Shown here: positions 22,877 to 61,623 of the stretch, piece by piece
Position numbering within the stretch: position 1 is the stretch's first letter
How the letters are laid out: each line of letters opens with the position of its first letter
Source: Xestospongia muta
Taxonomy: Eukaryota; Porifera; Demospongiae; Haplosclerida; Petrosiidae
Assembly (NCBI GenBank): GCA_963693285.1
Contig: OY848922.1
Coordinates: 5,940,923-6,004,922 of the forward strand
Direction of reading: 5' to 3'
DNA length: 64,000 nucleotides
The notes under the pieces: model-generated
Databases searched by the model: none
What the model saw: the letters and a program-made list of their open reading frames with translations, nothing else
What the model was told of the DNA's origin: nothing
Made by a program: the position numbers and the translations under genes

Positions 22877-23565
22877 TTAATCATTGATTTTTGAGAGAAA
22901 ACAGCATATACTTTCAGCAATAGATAAGTTATCAACAGGAGGTGACTCTATTGCTGTTATAATGGTACTCCATTTAACATTAGTAGGCTGACCATCAATC
23001 CATAACTGAAGAACATTAGAGAGTTTCTGCTCATCACTGAAATTACTCTGATGTAAGGACATCAAAGCTCCATGCCTAATTTCAAGGGCTTCTCCTATTT
23101 CCTTCCATTTATATGCAATAGGAGTTAGTAGACGTATGAGCTGTAGTTTGTCTGGTTTACTGTCTATAATAATATACAAGATGTACAATAACATAAATGA
23201 GTACATATAACAGATACATACATGTTCTATGTAATAATAGAGTGAGTAGTAGATATAAGAAATAATTTTATCCATAGAGTATAAATAAAAAATTTATTGT
23301 AAATGCTGTGGTAGCAAAAAAATTAATTGAATGAAGGTAAAACTTACCAGGATCTTTGATAGTGGTTTCTAAACCTATCTTCTTAGTTACAACTTCTGGA
23401 GTAGCCTCACTAGTGTCTGTAAATGAAAGCACTGCTAACAATGAAAGTAATATATTGGGATAATTAGTTGCAATGAGTTTAATAAGGTTAAAATAAACTT
23501 TAGCTAGAGTTTATCAAAGTTGCTGACCTTGTAAAGGGCATATACTAAAACATGGACAAAGAATG

Positions 23566-26500: not shown

Positions 26501-29500
26501 TAGCTGATGAAATGGAACGAACAAATGTTGTGATAAGCTCAAGATTACTCATCCTGAGCTCCTTTGGTTGTGTGAGTGCCTCTCCTTCAATAGAATATTG
26601 AAAGACAGGCTTACTTGCCAGACGATCCGTCAATTTGTGCACAATGACATTGATAGTATTGCCTCGAACAAATGCTCTAGATACATCAGCAAACTGTGGC
26701 TGACCACCACTATCAAGCACATATATCCAGGTTGACTTAGATAATTGTTGCTGAGAAACTTTACCCATTTTGGTGAGAATACTCTGAGAAAGCTGTATAA
26801 TGCTAGCACCTTCGTTACTATTGGTATCAGATCCATTGACATTTAAAGGCTGGTCAAGAGAGGAACCTTCATATTTTGTTTCAGCACGTTGAGGTTCATG
26901 CTTGTAAGGAACTTGTTTAGATTCCTTATGTTCATTACCACTTACATGTGCATACCATTTAGTTTTCTTTAGCTGGTCAATTGCATCTAAAGGTGACATG
27001 GTCTCTGGACAGGATTTGGCAGGAGAACTAGGACTCTTACTGCTCTTCAACAATTTGTGTTCGGTATGAAGAGTGACAGATTGAGATTCCATCTCATTAG
27101 CAGACACTTCATATTTTGTTTCAGCACGTTGAGGTTCATGTTTGTGAGGAACCTGTTTAGATTCCTTATGTTCATTACCACTTGCATTTACATGCCCTTT
27201 AGTTTTCCTTAGTTGGCCACTTGCATCTAATGTTGACAGGGGCTCTGGACAGGATTTGGCAGGAGAACTAGGACTCTTACTGCTCTCCAACACTTTGTCT
27301 TCACTATTAAAGGTGACAGATTGAGCTTCCATCTCATTAGCAGACACTTCAATTGATTTCTCGATATCCAGTGATAAATCTGACAAATCTGTCTCTGGAT
27401 CCATGTAAATTGCATGAGTGTGGATATCTTCTGCAAGCATTTGCATCAAATCTACAGTCGTGATTGGTTCCCAGCTTTTGGATCCATCAACAGTAGCTAT
27501 TCTTTCAACAGCTATAATTGGCTGATCAGCAATGGCTGTGCTGTGATGATGACGAGGAGGCTTCCAATTAAAGAGAAGATGCTTAAACGAGGTCTTTCCA
27601 ACAGCAGGAGGACCAATTAACAGTAGTTTTATAATTGACAAAATGACATAGCCTTCATTGAGAGCTTGTAATAAAATGGCTTTATCTAATAAAATCAACT
27701 AAATGGTGATAATACATTCAAATCTTACTTACCATTTTTGTCGATATAATCAGTTAGGTTTTTGTGAAAATTCATTGCTTTGTTCTTAGCTAAAGACAAA
27801 GCAGTGTCACCATTCTATAAAAATATAAAGACCCCATCATTGATGTTAACTATCAGCATTAAGTACAAAATAAAATTAGTATATCATTAACTTTAACTGT
27901 TTTAGGAATCATACATGCAAGGAACACTTTGCAATGAGAAAATTTTTTAAGTACTTCTAGTAATAATGGATGTCAAATCTAATGTAATTCAAATACAACA
28001 ACATATTACAATAAAAACAAAGAATTTCAAAGTATCAACTTTACAGTTTGAAGATCTTTACTATCTTATAAAGTTTAATATATTTTTGTTGCTTAATAAC
28101 TGCATTAGTAAGAATAGTAAGCTTTTGAGAGTTCAATATTCAACAGTTCTTTCAATAAATAGTACAATAATGATCATTTTGAAGCATTTCAACTGTGACT
28201 AATTTTAATTTCATATTTTAATATATCAACTCACTTTATTAATTATGAACCTGTCTGCTCCATTGTCAATCAGAAGCACTGCACATTTAAGGTTTCCCCA
28301 CATACATGCAAACATCAAAGAAGAGTTACCATCCTAGATAAAATACATCAGTAGTTATAACTTTAATTACTATATTAATTTAATAAAAGTAATATTGATG
28401 CCATTAAATAGTGCATACTTCCTTTCCATTATAACAAATGTCCTTTGTAATAATTTGTACAATTAAATGTAAAGTATCACTAAACAATAGGGAGAAATTA
28501 GAATTTATAATGGAATAAATTTAAACATTGTTAATTTTCAAAATGATTGCTTAAATGGAGACACATTCTTTTTTCAATTGTATAAATATTCATAATACAA
28601 TGAACATATTCAAAGTGAACAAGTGAATGACCTAACTTATTGTTATCAGTAACAAATTAGGGTGGAAATAGAACAACTAGCATGTGTGGAAGTGACATGG
28701 AAACACATATTCTCAACAGAAATTTAACTACATAAGGAAGTATATAACTAAGTAAAACTTAAATCTAGATGATTTGCCACTTCATATATTTTACATTGTG
28801 CATATTAGACACAATTCTTTGTTACTTCATTTGCTATGCAATCATCTTGTCTGTTGGGTTAGTTATAATGAGATTAAATGAGGTTACTAAAACTACATTG
28901 ACTAACAAATAAGTATTTCATGGGAAAAATGTTGGTAACGAATGTTGCTAGTTCAAATTGTTCATGATCAGGATAAATATATTCATATAATTGGTAATTA
29001 TGTTGCTAGTAACTTATGTAAGTTTATTTGTTGCTCTTAGAAGCTTAAGTCACACAAAACAACAAATAAAATATTATGAAATGGATATCCCCTTATATGT
29101 ATTCATTAAACAAAAGGTGCCACTGCAAAATTAAAAAAATCTGTCAAGCCAATGGTTTCAATGATTCTAACACAATATAATTTTACTATCTAACTGAAAA
29201 ACTAGATGTGTTTGTTATACAAAGTAGCTGTAACATGGAACATATAACGTAAAAAATGATACTTGAGCATTCTTTTCTACAAATCATGTCAAACTATACT
29301 TATACAGAGTTGTAATATTATCAAAACATTCTTAGATTAATTAGGTACAACTGAACATTCTAAGTACATGAGTGAGGTAACTATGCCAGTCTTCACATTG
29401 GCAAACAATAACAAAATTAATAGTACAAAAGAGTATTTTCACTGATTTATAATAATATTTAATATCATACTTAACATACTATTTATAACCTATGACTACT

Positions 29501-35500: not shown

Positions 35501-38500
35501 AGATTTCTTACATGTGCGTACTATTAGAGCTGAGATAAATGTACCTTAGTACGACAGTTTGTACTTGCTCATTAAATTTAGCTACAAACCACTGGAATGT
35601 GAAGAGGTATGTCATTATCTTCGAACCACACCCATGTTAATAATAGGTGAAATCTTTTGGCAATATGGTGGCTCTGAAAAGAACCGTTTAAATTGGAAAT
35701 CTGAAGGAGTAGAAGTGAGTCTGTTGGAGTCACACATCAGAACTGATATCAATATCGACTATTTCACCCACAGGCTGACCAGATGTGTGTTTTGGATTGG
35801 ACAACTCAAGTAACATACAGTTGTAATAAAAGTATCTAAGCTTAGGATACATGTTCTTCCAAAAGTCAGGATTGTATTGTATCCTCTCTAGGTGATAGTC
35901 ATTATCTCGAGGAGTCCAGTCAAAGAAATTGCACCAGGTCCGACCAGTAATATGTAATTGTCCCTGAATTTGATAGTAGTAGTTGTGATTATGTTTGAGG
36001 TGAAGTCGAGAATCTTTGAATGACAAGCATAATGTTGAACAATGCTCCTTTTTGGTACTCAAGTCATGTAAAGAAGTTGATTCTGCTCTTAAGAGACATT
36101 TAATTTCTAATAGTCCATTTGGGATAGAATAACTTGGGTCTGTAACAAGTCCATCGGGCGAGGCACCTAGCCAGCAGTCCTTGGTATCTACATGTATTCC
36201 TGTTATTGATACTGATGATAGAGGTGATGAAAGCAATAGTCGTTTTAAATAATCAGTTCGTGCTTCTGCTTCATGAAGATTATCATATCTTATTCCTTTG
36301 GTTTCATGATATTTACCATATAGTAATCTTGTTGTGAGTTTGCTGAAACCAGTGGTCAATTTTCGTTTGCAGATTTCACCAAAAACTGAAGCTGTCAACC
36401 TTCCATGTCTCTGTCTTTGCCATTCTCCACTAACATCCATTGACTGTCCCGCTGTTCGTTTAGCTATTTCTTCAGCCTCAGTATCATTAACTGTCAGTCT
36501 GTCAATATACTCACTATAAATCGTTTCAGTTCTGCCATACTTATATCAACATTTAAGGGATTGTCACCATATGATGAATCTTGTCTTTGTGGTGGACATT
36601 GGTATTTTTTTATTGGTTGTTGACGTTTGTATTTTTCTGTAATTTTTCCGTAAGTATCAAGCTCCAATTTTCTTTTTCTACACTGACCAAACTTAGACAA
36701 ATACACTCGTGGTTTTCCTATCTTCCTTTCCCAAAATTTACTTATCCACTCTGGTCCAAGCTGTACTCGAAGTGCTGCGGCCATTGAACAATGCTGAAAT
36801 GATCCACCTTGAACCCAATTAAAAAACTTTCCTCCATCCATTTTACTAGCACCTTGAATGGCACGAAATAAGCCTGAAGGAAGTGATTCAAGATGACTTT
36901 GAGAAAAGGGAAGAGCTGTTTTTCTGTAAACAAGTAGTTATGTCACAGTTTGAGTGATCACCAAAGTAATGTTTTGGCCCATTACGGAAATCGCTTCTAA
37001 GTGCTTCGACATCACCAGTACAGCTATGAGCAGTGATTGCTTTCCTAGCTGCCTGTGTAATTTTGGTAATGATATGTTTTGTCAACTTACCTGAACCACC
37101 AAAACTGGGATTGTTTTTGACGATATTGGCAAGTCTTGAGTGGTAGGCCTTAACTGCATGGTTTGCACACTCTATCTTCTCAACATGTCTGCCATATGGT
37201 ACTTATGTTATTATGTTATAATGAACTGAACTGTCTCCATCTCCAATAAACTTCATATACCGTAACCCATGCATACATTCGGATAGATTGAACCCTTCCA
37301 CTATTATGTCAGATTCCATGGCTGTTGAAGATCCAGTCCAGTTCTTAAAACAACAATACTCTCTTATATCCTCTCCTTTACTACTAGCAACTGAGCAAAT
37401 TGAACAGTACTTATTTCTAACTCCAATGAATAAAAGACGTTGGGTAGCAAATCCAAAAATAACTCCAACTCCAGAATTAGCGTTGTAGGAGTGTTTATGA
37501 CTCCTTTTACTCCAACCAGCATCAACAACTACAGTTATAGATGGTACATTGTTGTGGTATTCACCTTTTTCTATAGCTATCCGTTTTAACCAGGATATTG
37601 TTCGTTAACAATCTGTTTGGCACTGTTCTTGAACCACCAGCCTTTAATTTTGATACCCCTTCGACGTAGCTGTCGAAACTCTGCATGGACCTGCTCTTCC
37701 ATTAAAGGAAACTGAGCACTTCTTATAAACATCACTCTTTTGGTACCTTTTTTGCTTTTCTTGATTTTTTCCTCATCTTTTATCCACCTCATCACCGTTT
37801 TTGTATTTAATGTAAACGTTTTACATGTTTTGTAGAGATTGCAATCATTTTTTTGTACCAACTATTAACTCGAATCTTTTCTTATCTTGTGTAGCTCCTT
37901 CATGACCGTTTTAAAGATCGTGTTTCTTTTAAAAGGATCCCTGATGCCTCAGATATACTAAATTTCACAGACATTTCTATTACACTCGTTTTTTCACACT
38001 CACTTTTTCACGTGGCATTAATATAACATTAATTATTAATAAATCATTAATAATTATCATTAATAATTATTAATTTATTACCGTAGCGCTTAATAAAAAA
38101 GAGTTCTGACCAAGATAAATGTGTGCGCTTAACAAACAGTATGCACTTAATAACCATATGCTGTCTGCACAGCAAAAGGCTTCCACCATACCTCGAGGCC
38201 TCTTTTGCTTCAGGGCAGAAGGAAGTCCTTTGCGATTGCTCTGGACCATGCCTGGATATAATCAACAATAAGTACAAGGTACAGGATGTAGACATAGAAA
38301 TACCTGTTACAGTAATTCCCTTCCTCTTTAGCTCAGTTGCTATGAGAGGGCTATTATAAAATCTATCAAGGTATACATCATACCCCTTATCCTCAAGTCC
38401 ATCCACCAGTGTAAGGACAACTCTGGCAGTGTGGGGTAACTCAGGTCCTACAAGCTCTGTTGCCCATCCATAGCGTATGGCTACCTTATAAAGGTAGCCA

Positions 38501-45293: not shown

Positions 45294-46126
45294 ATGTGTA
45301 AGCAATATGTCAATATCTGGTATTCACTGTGTAACATATTCCTTTACTCAGTGGATAGTTTCCTATACTTCATAATTCCTATTGCTGTGGTTGTATTGGG
45401 ATTAAAGTTTTGTTTGTTGTGGTGGAGAATACATTATTATCAACAAGTATGATGTCATTATAATGTTGTCGGTTAATTTATATAATCCTTACAGAGAAGA
45501 CAAGCTCAACTTGCTAGGCAGGACCAGATTCAACAAATAGCAATTTCAAGAACTCAAAATGCTTGGTTAGTTTTATTGATATCAATGTATAGAATTATTA
45601 ACCCTTATGGTCATCCAAGTGGGTGAGGGTTTATTACTTATTTTATATCTCTGTCTCAATGTGTCGTCTATTCTGAAAGCACATACAATGTGGTAGAGTT
45701 TATCATTCCTAAGAAATTAATATATTTATAATACACAATTATTGACATTTTCAATATTGGATTTTTTTTTAAAATGCTTTCTTCTCAAGTTTTTTGAATT
45801 TTAGTTATCTTTTTCTGATAAGATCTTGTGGCCACACCCATTTTTATGAAGTATTGTAATTATAATTGTCACATGATCATTATATTATACACTAACAGTG
45901 ATTATAATAATACATTGTATTACATGTTACTAGAGATACAGCTCATACAAGAACAGATTACTGAAATCTACCTTACAAGGATAGTTACAAGAACATCTTA
46001 TGATAGTCATCATATTATACCATCTCTTGTTTTTCCATCAGGTCAGATTGGACAGTTCATCTGACAATTCCATGTCATTCTATTGTTATAACTCCAAATG
46101 ATCATTTACAATATGGATGGATGTAG
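45294..46126 (+). CDS. Small predicted single-pass membrane protein, three exons
   Basis: Exons 45294-45446, 45495-45565 and 46042-46126 join without a frame break to 102 residues. Introns start GTATGA and GTTAGT and end ACAG and TCAG. Residues about 19-42 form one hydrophobic helix (FLYFIIPIAVVVLGLKF) followed by WWR and then a basic/glutamine-rich segment (RRQAQLARQDQIQQIA), suggesting one membrane span with a charged inner tail. No family recognised. It is divergent from gene B. A degenerate copy of its third exon and 3' flank lies at 62585-63150, where the equivalent exon has an early stop. Alternative 3' exons are possible because the flank also contains a tyrosine-rich frame. Confidence 0.5.
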
Positions 46127-46400
46127 TTATCAGTTAACATCCTATTATGTTACTATCTTATGATGAAGTTGTAAATGGTCAAGATAAGTCAAGTTACGAA
46201 AGTATCAAGATCTGATAAAGTAAGTGTCCCACATCCAGAATAATTTGCTCTTACTGCTCCTAAAGATGACAGTGATGATGATGACATCTTCATATGTTTC
46301 TATAGGAATATCAAAATAATAAATAAAATAGTAAGTGAAGTAGCTACTGAAACTCCACCCACTTCATGTCACTGACTACAACTCATCAATATTGCATGTT
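45843..46400 (+). repeat. Dispersed 0.55-kb repeat, copy 1 (3' part of the small membrane gene)
   Basis: Matches 62585-63150 over most of its length. Shared blocks include CATTGTATTACATGTTACTAG, TCTTGTTTTTCCATCAGGTCAG (one base differs in the second copy), ACTCCAAATGATCATTTACAA and CTCCACCCACTT. It covers the third exon and about 270 bp downstream. Confidence 0.75.
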
Positions 46401-48880
46401 ACATAATCTGTATACTATGAAACTGACTTTGTAAATGATTGTGATGACAATGTATCCTACATTACTGTTGATATATAAGACTAACTGATCTGTCATTTAA
46501 TAGTATGTAGTGTACACAGTCAACACTTCATTTATTCATTCAGAAAAGATAAGGTTTCTTTATTAGCTTTAACTACCTTATACTAAGCTCCTCTGTTTAT
46601 AATATGTAGTGTTTTATTCCTGTTAATAATATAAATTATATCTCACGTACATGTCTATGTACCTTTGATATGTAAGTTTTGTTCAACATGATCATGATAT
46701 AAACAATTCACTTATCATTGTAGTAATACATAGGGTCAGACCTATACATGTTTTAGAAAGGAGGCTTCATTTTCTACACATATAATAATATCACTAAACA
46801 TTACATAGTGTGATCAGAATACATACATACATTAGTCTGTTTGATAAAACTACTGCAGTGATCACTGTCTAATTGTTAAAGTAGCATGTGTTGCTAGGAT
46901 AATCTCATAACATGACAACCATTATATTGAATTAGACATGCTTTAGGTTTCATGATCACTTCATTGTCATTTCACTACAAAGAGAAATAAAATTAACTTA
47001 CAACTGACTCTGTATGTAATGAGGAGGATATAGTCAAGGTCATAACACCAGTCTAGTGTGAGTACATGTACATATATTATATCAGTATGGTTCTTTAGTG
47101 TGTACAGTTGATATAATAAATTAACCACAAACACTCTAATGATTATCCTTATAAGGACAAAATGAATAAGTAATATTCTTAACTATAAAAACTATGTCAA
47201 TGCACTACTGCAATATGATATCTGAAAAATATCTTAATACTATCATAATTTTTAGTACATATCTGTAATACATTGGAAGTAATTGCACTTTAATCTCCAT
47301 GACACATACAATGTTTGCAAATGTTTAAAGAGAATCTGATAAAAAATGAAAAAAATATCTGAATAGATTTCAAATATCTAAAGTTCATTGAAAATTGTTT
47401 ACCAATAAAGGCTATCCTACCTGTCCATTGAACCATAAATCTTAAACTGATAGTAATCCTAGTCATACATATCATAGTTCATTTTAACTTTCCTGGTATT
47501 AACAAACATTTCTTTCAAGTAATCTTACGACAAAGTCTTGATGACACAGATAGTCACACATTATTAGATTTTAAATTCCACAAATCATTAGTCAAAGAAC
47601 ACAGTACAGACATTACAAAGTACTTCAGAGGAAATAGTCCATAGATATGACCAGAACACTAGTACTCATCAATTAAAAACCACTGACTACAAACAGAATT
47701 TGTCCTCATAAATCAGTAAACTATTGTACACATTCAAATACCCTATTTCATACATTTCCTTATTTAATGCTGTACTTAACCTCTCATTTATTTGTCCATC
47801 ACTACATCTATACTTAAGTTACATAGTTGTCACAATCATATCACAATCATACAAGGTGTGACAAGCTTGAGACAACCTAGGTTCAGATTTGTGATTAAGT
47901 AGTCACTCATCACAGTCTACCTTGTCATAAAGTTGTAGTGAATGTTTACTTTATTGTGAACAACCTTGTACAGTGATTGTTAATAGTGCTAGCTAGGCCC
48001 CTATATATAGCATATCAAATTGTAATCCTAAATCTTCTAATTGACTTAGCTTCGTTTATTGTGAATGTTATTAAATAATTATCACAAGTCAATACACAAT
48101 ATATATTGTGTAGTATATATCTATTCTGTTGATTTTTCAGACCTTGTTTATCTGTATATCATAATCAATATGATGAGAGTGTCTTGATCCACATGGTGGG
48201 CTCTTACTTTATTTAAGACATTGCACACTCAAAGCATCTTCAGTCACTTCTATTGATGATCCAGTACTATGTGTTTGGACTAGAACACTCACAAAATGAT
48301 AGACCTATAGTTATAGAGATATGATGACTCTAAGGAAGATGGACAGTAGTTTGTAATTATAAAGTAACTCAGAGTTATTATACATGTACAGTTACTTATA
48401 TATGTATATGTATTATGACATCACTAAATATTTTGTTTACTTCTTTAAAGTTCTAAACTTAGTTTATGTGTATGTAGCTTTTCTTAAATTAAAAAAAATT
48501 GATCATTTATACTTACAAGAACTGTAATACATAGTTATAAGGCGTAAATGTCAGTCTTACAATTACATCCTAAGGATAGAGTTTTTAAATGTATTGTATG
48601 CAAATATTTCAGTATAACTTTACACCAATATTCAACAGTGTATAAAGGTAATTATATCCAGTATCACTGTAATAATTTGTTAGAAGGTATCCTGTAACTT
48701 ACTGTTAAAGTGATCATCAGCTGATCTAAAGAATTACACAGTCAGTATTGATGATGGTGTTGAACAAGTACATCACACAGTTATAACTGACTTTAGTAAG
48801 TCTTTATGTCAAAACCAATGTGATATACAAGATCACTACATTACATCATCAAGTTTAAAAATAATTCAGTCCCCAGGTAG
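46401..48880. other. No gene seen
   Basis: AT-rich sequence; short frames carry no recognisable motif or convincing exon. Confidence 0.4.
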
Positions 48881-51140
48881 CTTATTTATCTACTTTGATA
48901 TGGAAAGAGGTCTCTTCAATGTAAGGAGTACTGAAATGAATTGTTGTAGCAAAGATTGGCAAGTCATCTGAATCCTAGAGATTTTATATGGCTATTATTG
49001 TTATTAATAAAATTATAAATATTAAGTATTTTGAAGGAAAATATACATATATTGTTGCACATGTTATTAGCTTATCCTATGAAATTTTTTAAAAAAATTC
49101 TTTTCATATGAAGTACACTGGTCTCACTAGCCATACTCATTCACTCTTATGAAGTGGAAAGGGTTTGTTAGACTGTAAGTATGTATTTGTTCAGAACACT
49201 ACTGAAAGTTGGTAGACAATAAGGAGCATTGTATAAGTCATTGACAAATTAAAAGACAAGAAGTAAAAGGCTAACCATACCTTAAAAGTCAGAAGCTTAA
49301 GCACTGAGAGGTTATAATTAGTCCAGTACCACCTCCTGAATGATTCCCATACTTACAGTTGATAATTTATCCATGATAATAGACAACACTACCTAAAGTT
49401 AATGTTACCTTCACAAACTGTATCAGCCTCTTAGGACAGCTTTTAGGGATCAATAATTTGGATAGTAATTGAAAAACACAAGACTATTAGCATGTCATTA
49501 CCAATCACTTGAATTAATAATAAAATACCTTCATTGAAAAGTTCTTTGTCTTTCTTGTCATTAAGAGTGAAGAGAAGCTGCTTCAGTTTAGGCCTATATC
49601 TAAGTTCCAATCAAGAATACACAACTGCTCTTTTTTCTAAGTCAGCCAAGTTTCTATTTAGCAAGTGGATAGTAGTCTCTTCATCTAACATGATAATAGT
49701 TTAGATTTTCATTCTAAACAAGAATAAAGAGCAATTAACACATGTAAATAATCACAATGTTAAAAGTCTTATTAATAACTCACTACTTTCCAAATATTCA
49801 ATGATGTGTATTGCTCAAGGATTTCCATAACTGGAGGTTAAATGTTTATTATCCATTTCCATCTACTAGAAAATGTTCTGCTATCAAAGACTGTAGTGTA
49901 GCAAGACAACAGTCTCTTCTTTCTTTTATAACACTCCTGTTGTAACATAGCCACATTTGTTGTTAACACAATTATCATTATCTTAATCATCAATGTGGCA
50001 CTTGTGTCATTCCAACATGTTTCGAGGTCTTCCATCATTTTGGAAATGGTTCAATAGTAACAGTAAATGTTTTAGAAGCAGGTAGAAGATAAAGAAACTA
50101 TCAGTCACATAAATTAGCTTTCCAATTACCCTGAGAAATGAACAACTTCATAGCAAATACAAAATGAAAATTTGTCACACTTACATAACAATTAGAATTA
50201 ATTTAACTCTATTTTCTGCATAGGTTTCAATCTCTTTACAAACATACAGTGTTGTACTGATCACTTGAAGGGTTTCTTGTATGTACCATTATTAATGTGG
50301 AGAGATCTTGAATAATCCTTGTTCTAATATCTCACCTGTGGCTAAGACTTCATCTGTCTGGAAAGAGAAAGCAGAGGGTATCACAAATGTGTGATGTTAA
50401 TTTGACATGTAGTACTAAAAGTCAAGGAACAAGGATTGTCAAATATAGATATTTGCTGTACAAACTTCAGTATAGTTAACTGGTTATCCAGGTAATTGAT
50501 GTCAAGACTTTTGTTTTCCTAATAATGATAATATAATGATAATTATCATAACAAAAACAACAACAGATCAATTTATTGACCTTCTCAGCAGATATTGCAA
50601 TTTCCATAATCTTTTCTGGCTTGACTCTTTCTCCTAGTATTTTCTCATCAACTTCTTTGAGCTGTCCATCACCTATTGAAAGAAACGTTTAGCCATTGAT
50701 CGAAAGATTTGGAAGTTGTTCAAAACTGTATGGAGGATTCCTTCGGATTATAGAAATGCAAGTAGTCTATCAGCCAATAAATATTCCAAGACAGCACTAT
50801 TTACCATTGAACAAAGATTATGCAGTTGTTGTGATAACGCAGGTTCAAAATTCCTATTGCGCATGCTCGTATTTTTTCGAGGGTATTATTAAGAATTTAG
50901 ACACTACTGGTATGCTGAATCTGTCGTGCTGTTATCTTCCTTGTACAAGTAGCCCATGGATCTTTCAAACGTTAAAGTTAATCCGCTCTGGTCACTCCTA
51001 CTACCAAGTATTATGTACTTTTTAGACATATCTGAGAGGTCCATGCATACAGACTCGGCTTCTGTATCACCTGTTGTCTGAGTGGTTCTCAAAAAGATTT
51101 TAAAAACGTTCACTATTTTCAGGAACAATGTGTATGATAT
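48881..51140 (-). other. Possible exons of an unrecognised minus-strand gene
   Basis: Several short open segments have good splice borders. Near 51080-50904: TTQTTGDTEAESVCMDLSDM and following. At 50671-50580: DGQLKEVDEKILGERVKPEK, ending before GTCAAT. Near 50520-50450: ENKSLDINYLDNQLTILKF. At 50038-49838 and 49690-49535: RYRPKLKQLLFTLNDKKDKE, with an in-frame TGA upstream. Near 48975: DSDDLPIFATTIHFSTPYIE. Composition looks protein-like and coil-rich, but I recognise no family, and the phases were not made consistent. It may be one decaying gene, interrupted on its upstream side by the transposon that starts at 51411. Confidence 0.3.
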
Positions 51141-51664
51141 CCACACAGAATTTGAATATGTTCTTCAATCTACTATGGCTTGTTCCTTTCAAGACAGAAA
51201 TCCAGGTGACCCTGATCACTGATTGAATCTTGAAACTGACTCATTCCATAACATAATGTCACTGTACTTTTAAATGAGTCTCAGCCTTTTCAGAACTTGT
51301 CTAGAATATTAGAATTGTTTCTGTATACCCTCCAAGTGACCCTTTGCTGTTTGCAAGATCTACAATAGAGATCAAAAGCAATTCAGGTACCATACTCATC
51401 CTAAGTACTCAACGAATGGCTGAAGACAGGAATGTTTCCATCAAAAATTCATGAAAATAGGCGGAAAATAGGCGTGGTGACTCATATGCTATGAATAATA
51501 TGAACGTTATGCAGCAAGATGACAATGAACTTTGACCTCACGTGACGACAAAAGTAGGCAGGACTGACTGACTGATATCTATTATCACTTTTATTATAAT
51601 GATTGTTGTGCTGGTGAAAATTTACAGTTAGCTCAAGTCAGTGACATATAAGTGTTCTCTTCAT

Positions 51665-51988
51665 TCATTTCGTTGGATTTACTTGGCATTTACCAGAAAT
51701 CTGAGTGCATTTTTTTAGTTTACAGCATTGCTTCAGTTTCCCTGGCCCTCCATATTTTGATTTGTCTTTACAAAATACACAAATGCCACAATCATGTGTC
51801 TGCTTACAACCTGTACAAGTTCCACACCTTTTTCTCTTCATCCCTAAATTTTCAAATACATGGATTTGACAAGTATATAATTTATTCCATTGCATCCATA
51901 TACCTGGTTTAGTATATATACATTCTTTATAATTGAATATTACTTCTGTTATATTTTTGTCATTAGTTAGTTCATCTAAAATTCTCAT
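51665..51988 (-). CDS. CXXC-type zinc-finger terminal exon of the nested MULE
   Basis: 107-codon open frame (likely an exon, not a separate gene) ending at 51665. Residues about 54-94 have the eight-cysteine CXXC arrangement: CxxCxxC, then CxxCxxC, KYGG, and two further cysteines. Family knowledge: CXXC fingers in DNMT1, KDM2 and CFP1 bind unmethylated CpG. Here it would be the C-terminal module of a transposase, in the place where the larger element has a PHD finger. How it is spliced to the preceding frame was not resolved: a stop at 52030 lies between. Confidence 0.7.
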   Translation of the reverse strand: MRILDELTNDKNITEVIFNYKECIYTKPGIWMQWNKLYTCQIHVFENLGMKRKRCGTCTGCKQTHDCGICVFCKDKSKYGGPGKLKQCCKLKKCTQISGKCQVNPTK

Positions 51989-54768
51989 CCTCTCTTCTTT
52001 ATTGGCATGGCTATACAGATGGGTATTAATTAGTTATGAACTAATAAAGACTCAATGGTTGTACATGTTGTAAATAACGGTAGTACATTCCCTATGTTTC
52101 TTCCAGGTGCTTTCCCAGTTTGTTTAAATCGCCACTGATGTTCCATATCTTTGTATGGTGCAATATTCTCTCCTTGAAACTCTGTTGAAGGCACCATTGA
52201 GTTTGATGATGAGGCTGCTTTGCATGTAAGTACTGCACTGTGTAAAAGTGAATTGATGTGAGGTAGGAAGCTATGAACAAATGTGTTCTCCATAGTCACA
52301 GTTTCTTCTAACTGTTTCATGTACAACTGAAATGTCTGAAGTTGGATTGATGGGTCTGTACAAGTGCAGATGTAATGATAATTATAAGTAAATAAACATG
52401 CACTATACAATATGTAAACATGTACATACATACATTAATTGAATTGACAAAATTAATAAATCAATAAAAGGGTCACTTTTTACCTGTGGTTGGATTTCGT
52501 AAACTTTCAACGAACTCAAGATTGTCATCAAAATCAGAGCCACTTGACAGGTGCTCATGAGTGTTGGATGTACACAATGATTCATATTGAAAATCTTTGT
52601 CTAGGTCATTAGTCTCTAGTAATCGAATGCTATCTACTCGGTGAATGTGTTTACAAAGATGACCATTTGTATAGTCATAATACAACTGATCACACTCGTA
52701 CATATGGTAGCATAGTTTCTTGCACTCACTCATGGTACATATTAAATTTGACTCGGTGCATTCAGTTCATAGATCCATTTTCGCCCTTATAATATAACCA
52801 TCTGAATTTTTTCCTGATACACTAGGGACATGCCATGTGTTTGAATCTACTCTCTTCAATACAAAATTATACTATTAAAGCAAAAAACCATAATGATGAT
52901 GATACCTGTACTTTTTCTGCAGGGATAAGCATCCCATTCTGGTGACGATTGCATTCATCTCTCTGAGTAGTTGGAAGATGTACTTTTTTCATATAATTAA
53001 AAAAATTATCTTCTTCTATCCGAAGCAATACATTCAACAGAAAGTCTACTCTCCTATTAACTTTTCCATGTAAGTAAGGGGTTTTCAGCTTGTTGTGAAA
53101 GCTATACAATCATTTTAAATCCAACACACGATTCATGTATATTCTATGTATACCTTTCCAAGTACATATTTGTATCTGTGTCAGCATGCTGGAAGCAACA
53201 ATAACATTTAGCCCACTTCTCTGCATATTTAGTGAAATAGAGATAAAATTTGTTCAAATCTTCATAATCTTACTAACCTGGTCTACTTAAGTAATATTGT
53301 TTAAAGTATTCAATGAACATTGGTTCCTCTTTTATCCAGTACCGACCAAATTGATCTATCAGTTCAGTAAATTTGTCCAAACTGAGCTCTTCAAGTAGAA
53401 TGCACAGTGTTTGGTAAATTTTGACTTGATTTTCAGGAGCAAAACTCCTTATATGATTCCTCCATGACCTAAAAATGAAAAACATGTTAATGTAAAACAA
53501 CGTAAAACAAGTTCACCTGTGCACATGCCAGTGACAGAGTAAATGTTTAAGGGTTGTTCCAAACACAAGGCTTGCTGCATTCCAACCAGTGTTATCTGTT
53601 CAACTAAAAACTAAAAATAATTTTTACTAATAGCATGTAATCAACCATCGTCTGTCATCAGTACTGATACTAATGAATCTGGAGACTACTTCGTAATACT
53701 TTGTAGGAACAATTCCACAACCTCAGTAGTTTCTTGATCTGATATGCACCAAGCAATAGGTTGTCCTATATACATACAAGCAGCATATGAATCAAATGTG
53801 ATTTCAGTGTATTTAAGCTTTAACCTTGACTGAACTCATCCACAACAATACATGTGATCAACTTGAACCAGTAGGCGTTAGTGCCATGGGTGGCATCTAT
53901 ACACAAGATCTTACTACTGTACCTTCTGTACAGTCTCATTTGGAATTCTGTTTGAATAGCTAGGACAAATGAATCACTAGCAAGAGTAGGATATTCAGGC
54001 ATAACCATGCCTTGTTGCTTGTAAACTAGAACAGGATTAAAAGGCTCCATTTCTAGCTCTCATACAATCATATCAACTGATGTTGCATCGTTCTCATGTC
54101 TCTTCACTTGATTGTCTTGCACAGAACACTTGATATTTTGAATGTCTTGAGTTTCACCATGAAAATGATTGAGTCTATCTATATCTTGTATGTACCATCG
54201 TTCAATTTTGGTTTGTAAAATGATTGTCGTTGAACATAGTTAGTATATGCATCCTCCTCCTCTAACTCTTTCTACTTGTAATATTGCTGAAGTAAGTCTA
54301 ACTTGAGGAGTTTTGTGCCTAAATTGTAGGTTGTTACATTTAATCAATGCAATATATGAGTGATCAGAATGGCAATCAATTCAGATCATCTAGTGAAAAA
54401 TTATTAACACATACCAAGAGATTCTTTGTGAATTGACTGACAGTGGTCCAGCAACAATTTCATTGTTTGAAATGGTGGTAATGATTCACATTTGAATGGG
54501 CAAAAAAATCGGTTGCTGTAACTTGATTTCTGAAGATCAGTACATTCATTATGAGTTGAGCTCAAATGAGAAATCTGTCTATCCTTTCGTGAAAATGACT
54601 TGCCACAAATATGACAAGAATAAGCTAAACATAAGCATGAATTATATTTACAATTAACTTGGTTCACGTACTTTTAACTTTGTTTTCAGTTGATATCTCA
54701 TCATTACCAGACTGAGTGTCAGATTTAGAGTTTTCAGCAGACTCAGCAGAGCTAACAGGTTGGCTCAT
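51665..54768 (-). pseudogene. MULE transposase of the nested element: C2H2 - DDE - SWIM-like - CXXC, broken
   Basis: Start at 54768 (MSQPVSSAESAEN) with donor at about 54667; C2H2 exon about 54626-54418 (CHICGKSFSRKDRQISHLSS). Next is a broken exon 54329-53820 matching the larger element's transposase (NDATSVD; CIDATHGTNAY with the first catalytic D), containing stops. Then come PIAWCISDQETTE and MTDDG (second D; one TAG between), LLCHWHVHR (CxxH), 53500-53273, WAKCY with NMYLER (catalytic E, about 53170), and 53109-52867. A SWIM-like HLCKHIH (about 52650) follows, whose upstream CxC is damaged. Two more frames follow (52431-52030, 51988-51665). The last has a CXXC finger: CGTCTGC, CGICVFC, KYGG and KQCC motifs. 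No USP, Ulp1 or PHD module. It is a decayed paralogue of the plus-strand gene. Confidence 0.75.
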
Positions 54769-54922
54769 GTCTCTTTCCAGCTGAACAGTTATCTCCCACC
54801 AAAAACGTGTCGTCACGTGAGGTCAAAGTTCATTGTCATCTCGCTGCATAACGGGATTCGAATAATATATATTACGAGATTGTAGTAATAAAACGTTAAG
54901 ACGTGAGTGCAAGATTAAAAGA

Positions 54923-57900
54923 ATGGATTACGATGACGATTTTTCTGAAGTTCCTGCTGCTTGCCAAAATAGCAAAATGTTTCCTGAAGTTGGAGTTGGA
55001 CTACAGAATCTAGGAAATACATGTTTTGCAAATGCAACAGTACAATCACTGATTCATTGCCCAGACTTTCACAGACACTTGATATCACATAAAGAAAATG
55101 GTATGTAACTTTAACACTTTGCCAATTGTACATTGAATTCTCTGTCTTTTTTTCAAGAATGCACAGGTATATTTTGCATGGTATGTGTACTAAAAAAACA
55201 AAGGAAGAATTGCAAAATAGTTCAACTTCAATTGCTCCAAAGGAGTTGTACAAAAATATGAATAGTAAGTCATAATATACAATATTACTATATATGAATG
55301 TACAATATTACTATGAATCATCTTTCCTAAGAAATATTGCCACATTGGCAGTTTAACAATCAAGAGGATGCACATGAACTTCTACTTGGAATTCTTAAGA
55401 GCCTAGAAGATGCAAACATTAGGTAATTATTATTTTCAAATAATATGTAACAAACAATATTAACATAATGTTTTATTTAGTTCTCAAATAAACATTGGCA
55501 TTGAGACTGCAGGTAAGTAAATGATTGATATGGTGATCACATAAAAATCTTTAAAAATACAGTTCAATGTGTAGAATGTAATGCAATAAAATTAACAGAA
55601 ACTTATCAGTCTCACATTCAAATTGATACACAGGTTGGTTAAATTACAACAATTTGCTGTGTTTAAGTAATTGTTTTCAGAGTGAGAATATACACAAAGG
55701 TATTAGTGAAACTCACAAAGAAGAAATGTTGTCTCTTGATGATCTTGTATATTGCGAACAGTACATTTGGTGGTATTTTTGGACTGATATAAATATATTC
55801 TCTATTAGATGTAAGAAAAATACTCAAGCTGCTTTGAAGCATAACATCTCACACCTACCATCAACACTAATAATTCACATCAGAAGGTAGATAAATTTAT
55901 AAAATTAGATGACTAATGTTACCAGTAAATTAAATGTAAGGTTTACCTGGGAGACTACACATGCTAAGAAAGATAGTCGGCATGTACATATTACTGAGTC
56001 AATAGAAGTCCATGATAAAAAGGTGTTGATATCAATTGAAGTTATGTAATGACATAATCACCTTGTTCATATTAGGCAAACACAAAACGATATACTCTGT
56101 CCTCCATTATTGTGCACATTGGCTCTACCCCACAATCAGGTCATTATGTGACATATGCTCGTACAGCTGAGGGATGGTATGAGTTTGATGATGCATTGGT
56201 AAGTTTTTTTTAATTCAGTGTCAATATTATGAAATTTCATGCTAGGTGACACCAACAGACCTAGCAAATGTTTTAACAAAACAAGCATATATTCTATTCT
56301 ATACTGAGGTTTGTGGCTGAGGTTTGCACCTTGACATTGATCTTGGGTGTATGACATGAGGTGTAAATTATAACATTCCTATCACCACTATTCTGTCTTT
56401 TTCACATTTGTTACCAATATAGGTGAAACATGAAATCAAAAAGAAGCTAAGCTTATCAAATAAGAGAAAACTAACAGCATCCACTCTGCCTACAAAGAAG
56501 GGTTGTTGTTGCTATTAATTACATTTATCACAGTATACTACATGTATTTAGATATGGAGAAGTGTTTTCAAATGCAGTCACTTACTTCAACAGTTGTGTC
56601 AATTTCTTGGGAGAATGAAAAGCGAACATACAAACAGCAAATTAATGTCAAAGGGACTGATCTCCAGCGTCTACGTCAAGTGTGGGAATCAAGTTCAAGT
56701 GGTGAATGTTGGCTCAATGACAATGTATGAAATATAATAGATTACCAATAAAAAAATTTAAATAACATTCCAGATAGTCAATGGCTATATCCTCATAATA
56801 TGCAATAGTATCAAGAAGAAAACTGTAAGTAAAGACATAAGAAGAGCTCACATTAACTCCTTATAGGGAGTGAACATACTACCCATTAGTTCTTTTTTTC
56901 TGGAGGCATTAAATACAAAAGGAATTGACAATATACTTGAAAAGTGGTATAAAAAAGTTAGAACTTCATTACCCATTATTACCAATTGCCTCACTTAAAC
57001 AGATAAAAATGTTTTCAGAATTTGACATGTGGATTATACCTATCAACAGACATGCTCATTGGACAATGATGGTATATAATTTCACAGTCCTTACTTTTAG
57101 TGTATATGTACTCTGAACAGGTGATTGACTTCAAGAGAAGAATCACACATTACACAGACTCTTATGTCTGTCCTACCAATGTAACATGGGCTGAAAAAGC
57201 AATAACGTGAGAAAAAATAATATCATGTACATTACACCTTCCTCTTATGTAATGAATAGGAAATTCATAGACAAAAGATACTTGAAAGAAACAGGAAATA
57301 ACTTTGACTGGACAAAATGGGACAGAAACTTTCATCCTGTAAGTAGAAATACCATAAATGAAAATTAAGGTTTGAAAGGAAAATTTTATTACAATAGGAT
57401 GCACCACTCCAACAAAACTCATTTGATTGCGGGATGTTTGCAATAAAAGTATGTAGTGATATTTGTCATGGATTCCTTTCAATACTAAAAATATAGATGG
57501 CACTATGTATTACTAGCACAACTGATGCAGACTTTACCCAGGTATAAGCTTTATAAATCATGAAAGCGATGTTCATTTACTAGTACAGAATGATGTACCA
57601 AGATTTAGATATGAGGTCATGTATGAAATTCTTAATCAACACCTTTTGTACGTTGCTAAAAATAATATATTATTAATCATGATGCATGTGTTATGCATTA
57701 TATTAGGGAACAAAATGAAGATCGATTAAATCTGCAAAAAAATGCAGCTCTTGCCTGTGCTATTAAAGGTAATCCAACCAGGGGAAGTGCTAGCAATGTT
57801 GGCCTACAGCCCTCAAAGTGTAAGTCTTAATTAATGGACATCTTACTTTGCCATGTGATAGCAACCAATACAACACAACCAACAACTACCAAAGTCACAT

Positions 57901-60900
57901 CACAAGCCAGTAATCTAACTACAGGAAGTGGTACCAAAACAGGTCTACAGCTCTTAAAGAGTAAGTTTTAATTCACAAGCAATTTACTTTGCATACGATA
58001 GCAACCAATGCAAAACAACCCTCAACTACCAAAGTCACAGGAACCACACAAAGGACACAATTACAAAAGGTTAAAATTGGGACAACAATAGTGCAAAATT
58101 AGCACCCTTATATATGTAGGTAGATAACAAATACCAATGCTTGCATTGTGAAAAGGTATATCAAACCAGAAGTGGCCTTTTCAAACATAAGAAAGCTCTT
58201 CATTATGAACATTCTGGAACTCTTCATTGTCAGGAGCCTAACTGCCACTTCACAACACAAAGACTAATACAGCTACGTGAACATTTAACAAACACACACA
58301 ACATAGAGATGAAACTGAAGACAATGACATTTGCAGACAATGAAGGTATAATGCTATCCATGTATCAGCTAAGAGGCTAGTGTTATATTAATCTCCCTGT
58401 AGAATTTAAAACATGGAAAACATGCTTTGAAGAAGAGACTTCATCTTCATTCGTCAAAGCAACAGGAAACAAAAGGGACAGCGATGACAACTTAATATGT
58501 TACTATTATTGTAACAGAAGTGGATTTTACAATACTAAGGGGACTGGAAAACAACAGATGAAAGTTCAAGGGACGTGCAAGCTAAATACCTATTGTACAG
58601 CCTTAATTAAGACAATGACTGAGCAAACTACAAGTAAAGTACAGGTAGAAGTATGTAATACACACTATGGACACACAACAGATCTAGGACATTTACGCTT
58701 ACCTGATAACGTCAGACTCTCTGTTGCTGGACAGTTGCTTCAAGGAGTCTCATTTCAACACATCTTGGACAAGGTACGCGACAGTGTTGGCACAGATTTG
58801 AAACGAGTTCACCTACTAAGTAGAAAAGACATTGGAAATATTGAAAAATCATATCACCTAAATACTAAACAAAGAGATAAGAATGATGCAACAAGTGTGG
58901 ACTGTTGGGTAAAAGAAATGATGGAAAAAGAAGAAAGGAATCCAGTTATTGTTTATAAACCTCAAGGCTGTCCTCAGTCAGTTGAATCCAACAACATGTG
59001 CGATGATGACTTCCTGATATGTCTACAAACACCAATGCAAGCATCCATGATGAAGAAGTTTGGCCATCAGAGAATAATATGCATTGACTCCACCCATGGC
59101 ACTAATAGCTATAATTTCTCTTTGGTCACATTGGTAGTAGTAGACGAATTTGGTGAGGGGTACCCGGTGGGTTGGTGTTTATCAAATTGTGAAGATAAAT
59201 ATGTACTTCACAATTTTTTCACAGCAGTTAAAAAGAGGGTCGGTTTGATAACACCACAATGGTTTATGTCCGATGACGCCGAGCAATTTTATAATGCCTG
59301 GAGGTCAGTATTTGGTGAAGTCAACAACAAGCTGTTATGTACCTGGCATGTGGATAGGGCATGGCGTGAGAAACTCTCTCTGATAAAAGACAAACAGACA
59401 CAGGTAGCAGTGTATCACAACTTGCGTGTTTTACTGGAGGAGAAAGACAAACAGAAATTTCAAATACTTCTGACAAAAACAATTCAACAACTTCAACTGA
59501 ATGACGAAACATCCTCATTTGCAGAGTACTTCATCAGAACATACGTAGGTAGAAAACAACAGTGGGCACGATGCTACAGACAGGGATCATTTATTAATAC
59601 TAACATGTATGTTGAGGCTTTCCATCGTGTATTAAAGTACATATACATGAACGGTAGGATCAATAAAAGAGTTGACAATTGTATCAATACACTGATGAAA
59701 ATTACAAGAGACAAAGCATTTGAACGACTTATAAAACTAACCAAGGGGAAAAAGACAAAGAGATTAATTGACATACACAAAAGACATTTAACCAGCAAGG
59801 ACATGACAGTAGATTCAGTTGAACAAGTTGAACATGGAGTATGGGATGTGACATCATCACATGGTAATGACAAATACAGGGTGACTATGGAGAATGAGGT
59901 ATGCCCAGTGAATTGTAGACTAAGATGCAATGACTGCAACATATGTGTACACTCCTACTCCTGTACATGTCAAGACTATACTACAATAGGAAACATTTGT
60001 AAACACATTCATTTAACGGTACAGTTTCAACAATGCAACAGGCAAGAACAACTAAATAAAAACAACTCAACTATTGATGGAAAAAATTCAGAAAAAGAGC
60101 TAAATGACTTACTTGAAGCAATAACGTCAGATGATGGTGATTTGGACATTATTGAAACCAGACAACATATTTTTAACAAAATTCAGACTATTACAACATT
60201 GGTAGAACAATGTACTGATAAACAGACATTACAAACGATAAACACACAGCTTGGTACCACAATAGGACTGATAAAATGTTATTCGGAGCAGATAAAACCA
60301 GTACTTCCACCAAAAAGACAACATGAACCAGTAAATAAAACTATAGCTCCACAACGACCATTTTTCAGCACTCGTAAGAGACAAAAAACACCATCAATTA
60401 GACTAGCGAAGCCAAAGAACACCGAAAAAGAAGAAATTGAAAAAAAATTAAACAATGACACGAGGTTATATATGGCTAAGAAATCCACATATGGTATGTC
60501 TAAATCTAACATCAAGAAATAAAATAACATTTACCTTCCCTTTATAGATATTCTAACACTGCTATGTACGAAAGATAGAGCAGATAAAGTCATTGATGGA
60601 ACAGCACACAAATTAACACTGGTACAAATGAAAAAGAAAATGGACAACCTACCTGATGAGATAATCAACTTTGATATCACTAACATTCAGGATTACATGA
60701 CAAATGAAGCATGGGAAGCATTACAACAACTAGGTAAGGTGACATTACACTTCAATCATACTATCATCAACACCAAACTACAGTGACTACTAAACGTCTT
60801 GAATGGATGTGCTCTCATTGCCAACTATCTACAACACACAGAGACATGATAGAATGCGATGACTGCTGTAGATGGTTTCACTGGTAAGCATATTAAATGG

Positions 60901-61081
60901 TATATTATATATACTATATATAGAAATGACAACAATAATATACAGACCAAGATTAACATATAATATGTGAATAGTTTACCTTCTATTTTGTAGGACATGT
61001 GTAAATATTGAAAACCCACCAACTGCTGCCTGGATCTGCTCGAATTGCATTAAAATAAAGTCAATTAAAATAGAAGAATGA
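54923..61081 (+). CDS. USP - Ulp1 - C2H2 - FAR1/ZSWIM3-like - MULE transposase - SWIM - PHD polyprotein
   Basis: 27 exons: 54923-55100, 55158-55264, 55332-55422, 55481-55512, 55563-55633, 55681-55886, 55941-56022, 56076-56198, 56246-56308, 56423-56501, 56552-56724, 56774-56824, 56867-56956, 57003-57071, 57121-57206, 57260-57338, 57398-57448, 57497-57541, 57589-57647, 57707-57819, 57862-57960, 58002-58069, 58120-58345, 58403-60493, 60548-60733, 60784-60883, 60994-61081. Total 4,706 nt; adding one A in the run 55192-55198, where exon 2 is one base short, gives 1,568 residues in frame. USP (24-318): GLQNLGNTCF (C34), SGHYVTYAR (H279), EFDD. Ulp1 (about 345-590): LNDN, PINRHAHW (H468), D485 exactly 17 on as in yeast Ulp1, Q532 and FDCG (C538). 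Two C2H2 fingers (679-740). CNRSG FAR1-type segment. MULE D976, D1038/1039, CTWH, E1152. SWIM C1268, C1270, C1280, H1282. PHD about 1514-1560. All triads look intact. Confidence 0.88.
57862..58069 (+). repeat. Tandemly duplicated Thr-rich exon within the transposon gene
   Basis: Exons 57862-57960 and 58002-58069 both start CAACCAAT after an acceptor GATAG, both contain CAACTACCAAAGTCACA, and have similar introns between them (AAGTTTTAATTCACAAGC against AAGTCTTAATTAATGGAC). They encode a threonine-rich linker between the Ulp1 and C2H2 modules. A local exon duplication, in frame. Confidence 0.8.
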
Positions 61082-61196
61082 TTAATTGTTACTCCGCCCA
61101 TTATTTATTTTAAGTTGCTATGAATATATAATGTACTCATTCCTGTGGAAACATTCCTATGGAAACATTCCTGTCTTTAGCCGCTTCTAAGTACTC

Positions 61197-61623
61197 ATAC
61201 TGTACTTTAGTACAATGTTCTACCTTACAACATATGTATACTTTGAATGTATGTAATACTTTGTATCTCTGTTATAACAGAGTGGGAGCTTACCAGAAAC
61301 TAATTCTTTAGTGGAATATTCATACTTCTCACAATTGTTGTACTGTTTCTCTGACACTGTCAACATAATATGACATTGACTTATTAATGAATACATGAGG
61401 TAAGTATTGATTCCAAACGCTGTAAAATATGTTCTTAGAATACTGTATTTGCTAGTTGTTAGGTACATATGGTTATTAAGCATTATTAAGTGCACACATT
61501 TATCTTTGTCAGAATCCTTTTTTTAATAAATGATAATGAATTATTAATAAGCAATATGCATGACCAATAATAAATCCATCTTTCATCACAGATATAGCAA
61601 AATGGTTGTGTTCATTTGCTTAC
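61197..61623. other. Flank of the transposon; possible repeat end
   Basis: On the minus strand, 61450-61520 resembles the plus strand at 38098-38160 (shared TTCTGAC, AAGATAAATGTGTGC, TTAATAACCATATG). This suggests a dispersed repeat end. A short exon-like segment with acceptor and donor lies at about 61358-61299 on the minus strand; no family recognised. Confidence 0.35.

Follow-up and report, generated by a model that had tools for sequence, protein, structure and literature searches.

Structure and domains of a predicted protease-transposase gene

The window analysed here is a 64,000-nucleotide stretch of the genome of the sponge Xestospongia muta (C6:5940923-6004922, where C-numbers denote contigs and L-numbers loci), and the genome searched comprised 158,027,690 bases in 28 contigs. 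The window contains a transposon gene in which modules of the ubiquitin-specific protease (USP) and SUMO protease (Ulp1/SENP) types lie in front of the transposase of a Mutator-like element (MULE). Both ends of the predicted gene, the ATG at 54923 and the stop codon at 61081, were verified in the window, and the exon chain is phase-consistent throughout, with GT-AG introns of 41-114 nt and all modules joined in one frame. A preliminary description of this DNA had proposed a gene of this extent, joining protease and transposase modules in a single frame of 27 exons; the extent and the single chain were borne out, the exon number was revised to 28, and the window copy proved to be frameshifted in USP exon 2. 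The gene is organized as follows.

54923..61081, plus strand: USP-Ulp1-C2H2-MULE-SWIM-PHD gene, 28 exons, 1552 amino acids (aa) in the model of the C1 copy
54923..56308, plus strand: USP module, exons 1-10, with the UCH domain at aa 25-300
56552..57707, plus strand: Ulp1/SENP module, exons 12-20 plus the first base of exon 21
57707..58069, plus strand: Thr/Ser/Gln-rich linker, exons 21-23, containing two copies of an exon-intron unit (57769-57899, 57910-58039)
58120..58345, plus strand: two C2H2-like fingers, exon 24, by pattern only
58403..60493, plus strand: FAR1-like segment (by resemblance), MULE DDE transposase and SWIM motif (by pattern), exon 25
60784..61081, plus strand: PHD finger (PF00628), exons 27-28

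An automatic chain of 24 exons, in which several short exons of the USP and Ulp1 modules were absent or wrong, gave way to one curated by hand. Because of the frameshift in the window copy, the whole protein was read from L010, a near-identical copy at C1:18.2 Mb, whose hand-curated chain has 28 exons, encodes 1552 aa and contains a terminal stop as its sole stop. In the window copy, exons 21-24 contain no in-frame ATG upstream of the fingers, so the transposase half has no obvious start of its own there. The linker exon and its intron at 57769-58039 form a tandem duplicate (83 nt at 73% and 48 nt at 88% identity).

To assign the modules, the spliced L010 protein was searched against Pfam with curated cut-offs. 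Matches above the cut-off were obtained for UCH (E 1.5e-45, aa 25-300), Peptidase_C48 (E 1.6e-17, aa 382-561), ZSWIM1-3_RNaseH-like (E 9e-11), MULE PF10551 (E 1.3e-10, aa 956-1048) and PHD PF00628 (E 4.7e-6, aa 1500-1542), in agreement with the USP, Ulp1, MULE and PHD domains of the preliminary description. Its FAR1/ZSWIM3-like segment is reflected in the ZSWIM1-3_RNaseH-like match; its C2H2 fingers and SWIM motif gave no Pfam match in the 1552-aa protein at E up to 1, and both are assigned by pattern. The Cys and His columns of the SWIM stretch (CxCxnCxH) and the D, D and E columns of the MULE core are invariant across 15 aligned sequences. The Gypsy-integrase-type core rve, the hallmark of Ginger1 transposons, remained below its cut-off (E 0.012) and MULE lies above its own, which places the element outside Ginger1. 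A Peptidase_C48 scan of the raw genome gave three matches, none at the element; the Ulp1 exons are short, and the module was established from the spliced protein.

The catalytic residues of all three enzymes are present. The USP set is C34, H263 and D278, the Ulp1 set H452, D469, Q516 and C522, and the MULE set D960, D1022 and E1136. These are the protease residues previously reported as C34, H279, D294/295, H468, D485, Q532 and C538, in the new numbering, and the Ulp1 spacing of 17 from H to D and 6 from Q to C is as had been claimed; Q516 aligns with the Gln of SENP1. The window copy has intact codons for the catalytic residues of all three enzymes. They are also intact in the other copies, where covered, except for the first MULE Asp in C1:34.7 and the second in C11:1.38. 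Two copies, C7 and C11:1.38, have also lost a zinc Cys of the USP module, and two, C1:34.7 and C11:2.49, a Cys of the PHD finger; neither residue belongs to a catalytic set. With its Cys, His and Asp boxes the UCH domain is, by sequence, a USP (peptidase C19), for which ubiquitin cleavage is predicted. Likewise the C48 domain with its His-Asp-Gln-Cys set is an Ulp1/SENP peptidase (C48) with predicted cleavage of SUMO; some C48 members act on modifiers other than SUMO.

Comparison with solved structures gave human USP36 as nearest to the USP module (8bs9, E 7.9e-39, 136.8 bits; the next enzyme, USP15, scored 82.2 bits) and SENP1 as nearest to the Ulp1 module (6nnq, E 4.6e-27, 98.2 bits). These best solved relatives are human host enzymes and, unlike the two modules, separate proteins. 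An AlphaFold model of exon 25, built from 32 sequences (mean pLDDT 73.7), matched four solved structures with E up to 0.001, all of them of the ISCth4 transposase (best E 3.4e-7). We take ISCth4 to be an IS256-family enzyme, and the IS256 family comprises bacterial kin of MULEs.

The mobile element, a nested MULE and a sister family

The gene lies within a mobile unit with the following features.

51412..61188: whole mobile composite (outer MULE and nested MULE), 9777 bp, delimited by homology with copies on C1, C11 and C7 and by an empty site
51403..51411, plus strand: left target-site duplication (TSD) of the outer element, AAGTACTCA, 9 bp
61189..61197, plus strand: right TSD of the outer element, AAGTACTCA, present once in the L040 empty site
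51418..51441, plus strand: left terminal inverted repeat (TIR), core GGCTGAAGACAGGAATGTTTCC (inverted repeat I3, 24 nt, 96%)
61159..61182, minus strand: right TIR (inverted repeat I3)
51502..54859, minus strand: nested second MULE, 3358 bp, with a 9-bp duplication GAATAATAT at 51493-51501 and 54860-54868
51665..54768, minus strand: gene of the nested MULE with C2H2, MULE-type core, SWIM-like stretch (by eye) and CXXC finger, and an in-frame stop in the window copy

Copies on C1, C11 and C7 are 98.7-99.5% identical to the composite, and their limits of homology set its ends at 51412 and 61188. In the host paralogue L040 on C6 the site is uninterrupted, letter for letter, with one AAGTACTCA. L040 was one of three host paralogues to which the empty-site probe was applied; of the other two, L043 has the site with a few differences and L041 was not found. 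Elsewhere, the C1 copy is flanked by an 8-bp duplication, GTTAGACT; the flanks match at 8 of 9 positions at the C11 copy and at only 7 of 9 at the C7 copy. A DNA search for the element yielded at least 80 matching places, 40 of 187 candidates having been scored, so that the counts are lower bounds. The DDE domain, a TSD within the range of 8-11 bp and TIRs are all present, and the element is a MULE: an old, recently mobile Mutator-like DNA transposon. The transposon identity that had been proposed is thus confirmed by TIRs, a 9-bp TSD, an empty site and dispersed near-identical copies; the gene does lie within a mobile element, and the mobile unit is larger than had been described, since it spans 51412-61188 and includes a second transposon.

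This second MULE sits near the left end of the outer element and makes up the left 3.4 kb of the composite. It is bounded by its own 46-nt inverted repeat I1 (51505-51550/54808-54853). Pfam matches of its protein above the cut-off are zf-CXXC (2.9e-12, C-terminal) and ZSWIM1-3_RNaseH-like (9.1e-9), and below it MULE (4.3e-5) and zf-C2H2 (2.3e-4); CXXC zinc fingers are CpG-binding as a family. Left ends were read in eight diverged outer copies. Seven of them (L013, L018, L020, L021, L023, L024/L034 and L026) lack the nested MULE, and the remaining one, L028, differs at its left end. A stand-alone copy with the flanking duplication TATAATAAC is present on C3, and further matches confined to the nested MULE were found on C5 and C12. 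The possibility that the minus-strand gene on the left belongs to the genes of the outer element was considered and rejected, since the nested MULE has inverted repeats and a duplication of its own and a stand-alone copy on C3. The composite occurs whole or nearly whole at four places (C6, C1, C11 and C7), and in all four copies examined the nested-MULE gene shares the in-frame stop. This spread fits movement by the outer transposase, an inferred step in which the nested MULE would be a passenger.

We then asked how the module order is distributed in the genome. A MULE scan, in which 150 of 258 candidates were scored, was compared with a USP scan that gave 132 matches. A USP match lies at most 9 kb upstream on the same strand for 16 of the 150 scored MULE matches, and for none of them within 9 kb downstream on the same strand or on the other strand, which argues against chance proximity. 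Half of the 16 pairs are at places of the window's family and the other 8 are elsewhere. A sister family, whose members are 95.6-98.0% identical to one another over long stretches, occupies C1:20.99 Mb, C1:11.2 Mb and C7:5.77 Mb. The C1:20.99 Mb copy was modelled with 22 exons and 1535 aa, and in this one modelled copy the USP-Ulp1-C2H2-MULE-SWIM-PHD order is kept (UCH 2.8e-40, C48 1.7e-12, MULE 5.7e-11 and PHD 8.9e-7 in Pfam); matches to the window protein served as a guide in building this model, whose choice of exons is therefore not independent. The further copies with the same module order on which the preliminary description had depended are thus present, in the window's own family and in the sister family.

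Identity between the sister family and the window's family is 39% for USP, 38% for Ulp1, 48% for FAR1 plus MULE, 40% for PHD, 32% for C2H2 and 27% for the linker. The sister family keeps the USP C, H and D278, the Ulp1 H, D, Q and C and the MULE DDE; in its alignment the zinc-ribbon Cys 185 is unmatched and D279 is replaced by V. Its C7 copy, in which part of the middle is missing, has exact 9-bp flanks, CTCTCTCTG, that consist of a simple repeat. At C1:20.99 Mb (L046/L047), a stretch near agggaggagtgtata occurs on both flanks and is longer than a MULE duplication. L049 (C8:1096000-1103000) was tried as a third family with the full order and rejected: UCH (6.1e-12) and ZSWIM (3.1e-8) are above the cut-off, MULE is below it, and no C48 was found at E up to 0.01. 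By tblastn, L049 shows only a weak resemblance to Ulp1 (E 0.001), and it is a more distant USP plus MULE relative and a possible third family.

Selection, known systems and possible explanations

The ratio of nonsynonymous to synonymous substitution rates (dN/dS) was estimated by module. Against the 77-81%-identical relatives L045 and L038 it was 0.48 for USP, 0.51 and 0.40 for two pieces of Ulp1, 0.33 and 0.24 for C2H2, 0.30 for the MULE region and 1.16 for the linker (one comparison), values that are biased upward because these relatives contain stops. These older relatives show constraint on both proteases. Among young copies compared with L010, dN/dS ranged over 0.26-1.13 for USP (9 copies), 0.47-2.12 for Ulp1 (10) and 0.24-1.02 for the MULE region (12), where 7 of the 12 fell at 0.24-0.45; only copies with measurable dN and dS were used, substitutions are few and many copies are dead. 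When protease substitutions were set against MULE substitutions in a Fisher test, three comparisons gave p values of 0.007, 0.017 and 0.065; the counts were rounded, and branches are shared, so that the comparisons are not independent. The protease pattern in young copies may reflect relaxation, noise or fast evolution. Two further measures gave no or weak support: in diverged copies, 70 of 88 exon indels and 32 of 42 intron indels are not a multiple of three, and splice dinucleotides are kept in 334 of 351 cases versus 6666 of 7136 for other intron dinucleotides.

Several known transposons share part of this architecture. Ginger1 transposons carry Ulp1 or OTU, not both, and one family has Ulp1 and PHD; like the gene described here they combine a transposase with Ulp1, but their DDE core is of the Gypsy-integrase type and they have no USP (PMC2836005). 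The same source also reports Mutator elements with an Ulp1 domain from hydra, lancelet and plants, in the available part without mention of USP, and lists a Trichomonas protein, XP_001314237.1, with transposase_11 and Peptidase C19, that is, a USP-type peptidase beside a transposase, but of another superfamily and with no Ulp1 mentioned there (PMC2836005). Two ubiquitin-protease-type domains per transposon are known from 121 Helitrons with VTD and OTU domains together; these are rolling-circle elements, and the accessible text mentions no SUMO protease (PMC9741609). Chenopodium CACTA elements carry Peptidase_C48, as an Ulp1-type domain in a DNA transposon of another superfamily, with no USP in the portion available (PMC8978399). 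For MULEs, TSDs of 8-11 bp, a PHD finger in Rehavkus and two-ORF (two open reading frame) elements have been reported, in a text whose accessible part contains no words starting with peptidase, protease or ubiquitin (PMC6446971). Animal MULE-type proteins with a ZSWIM1/3-like DDE core are also close; one example, Lytechinus pictus LOC135157532 (P0080), is 39% identical over 91% of an 896-aa query and shares the FAR1-like, DDE and SWIM regions; its C-terminus has a PHD-like Cys/His stretch by eye with no PHD in its Pfam annotation, and as predicted it starts at the FAR1-like segment, without USP or Ulp1.

In protein databases (5.8 billion proteins), no USP plus MULE or USP plus C48 combination was found among 55 matches, the best 120 of 337 and the best 120 of 1176, a search in which unspliced or masked models would hide a fusion. 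A full-text literature search found no description of USP, Ulp1 and transposase in one protein. As far as we could find, this is the first transposase to combine a deubiquitinase-type domain with one of the SUMO-protease type. The earlier claim that the combination was undescribed accordingly stands for USP and Ulp1 together, with the Trichomonas transposase_11 and Peptidase C19 protein as a precedent for one half of it (PMC2836005).

The domain combination suggests a genomic parasite that can erase host tags placed on it. SUMO and ubiquitin are central to transposon silencing and protein turnover in animals. The explanation that we favour, with some reserve, is a Mutator-like transposon in which captured host-type proteases, one USP36/42-like and one SENP1/2-like, stand in front of a C2H2-FAR1-MULE-SWIM-PHD transposase in one protein and clear ubiquitin and SUMO at the element. 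The element is mobile, as its TIRs, 8-9-bp TSDs and empty site show; one copy has an open spliced frame, and the order and catalytic residues recur in the sister family. To this extent the interpretation in the preliminary description is supported. We infer that a single protein is made and, from family membership, what its enzymatic parts would do. The transposase gene would long have carried the two captured proteases. Its zinc fingers and FAR1-like part may bind the element's ends, the DDE core would cut and move the element, and the PHD finger would read chromatin. USP and Ulp1 would remove ubiquitin and SUMO at the element, first from the transposase itself, which could thereby escape proteasomal turnover, and possibly from silencing or repair factors that carry SUMO.

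Some observations weigh against this explanation. In this assembly a one-base frameshift interrupts exon 2 (55158-55264) of the USP module in the window copy; 9 copies, counting that of the window, cover the spot, and 5 of them are in frame. USP and Ulp1 lack clear purifying selection in most young-copy comparisons; C2:1.47 Mb compared with L010 gives dN/dS of 0.89 for USP, 1.19 for Ulp1 and 0.26 for MULE, with an intron divergence of 0.036-0.040 versus a dN of 0.024, 0.036 and 0.017, respectively. The 1552-aa protein contains no di-Gly anywhere, which argues against self-maturation at such a site. The targets named above are guesswork. Finally, the linker of L010, but not that of the window copy, contains an in-frame Met (aa 600) at which a separate start is possible.

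This last point leads to a two-gene arrangement, in which the proteases (USP-Ulp1) and the transposase (C2H2-MULE-PHD) would have a gene each and be expressed from separate transcripts or through alternative splicing within the repetitive linker; two-ORF MULEs offer a parallel (PMC6446971). The Met precedes the fingers, one comparison shows no constraint on the linker (exons 21-23), which also contains the duplicated exon unit, and no protease appears in the Pfam annotation of relatives of the MULE half (best 120 of 337), many of which may be unspliced predictions. Since phases are continuous through 28 exons, the sister-family model has the same continuous order and the window copy has no such Met, we consider two genes unlikely. 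It is still less probable that the proteases are dead weight, host fragments carried without a role. The dN/dS near 1 of USP and Ulp1 in most young-copy comparisons, beside the lower values of the MULE region and the Fisher tests, would fit this idea, but in the sister family, where the proteases are less than 40% identical, the module order is retained and neither protease has lost its catalytic residues, and the older comparisons give dN/dS of 0.40-0.51.

The proteases might instead act chiefly after excision, with DNA-repair factors as their substrates in place of the transposase or silencing factors, which follows the proposal of the Ginger authors for Ulp1 and OTU (PMC2836005); the PHD finger fits chromatin at least equally well, and we judge this role about as unlikely as two genes. 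A domesticated host gene that is no transposon would account for the long open frame in one copy, but TIRs, TSDs, near-identical copies on four contigs and decayed copies oppose it and the empty site rules it out, leaving it a negligible probability. Returning to the captured-protease transposon, a broader proposal can be put forward tentatively: an animal transposon family may have combined ubiquitin and SUMO erasers with a chromatin reader in one transposase to counter host degradation and silencing, and the faster evolution of the proteases in young copies might then be the trace of an arms race. If active, a transposase with its own deubiquitinase and deSUMOylase would permit a direct test of transposase level, silencing and transposition. 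The gene also joins Ulp1 MULEs, Ulp1/OTU Gingers, C48 CACTAs and VTD/OTU Helitrons in one theme, the repeated capture of ubiquitin-family proteases by transposons.

Other elements and genes in the window

Relatives of the protein P0001 gave no pattern match in viral contigs and 18 in bacterial or archaeal contigs, of which none was confirmed, and Rfam gave no match over gathering scores in the window. Host sequence to the left of the element (46000-51411) is repeated widely on C6 at about 3.7-6.7 Mb, in a large local repeat array. At C7:5782959-5785785, pieces of the composite include both ends and lack most of the middle, possibly as an internally deleted derivative, and at C2:21.90 Mb (L029-L031, L035-L037) three copies of the element's 3' part lie about 5 kb apart.

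Another transposon, with a Mutator-like transposase (PF20700, 2.9e-38), lies on the minus strand at 35733-37604; a YqaJ-like recombinase domain (3e-12) adjoins the transposase. The minus-strand stretch 38050-38679 matches DDE_Tnp_1_7 (8.9e-30) and is, judging by the family name, presumably a piece of a piggyBac-type transposase. Two minus-strand genes, at 2521-3867 and 25624-27698, have weak Ras/Roc matches; the second also matches COR-A and lies near a weak Death-domain match (22880-23293), all of these being below Pfam cut-offs.

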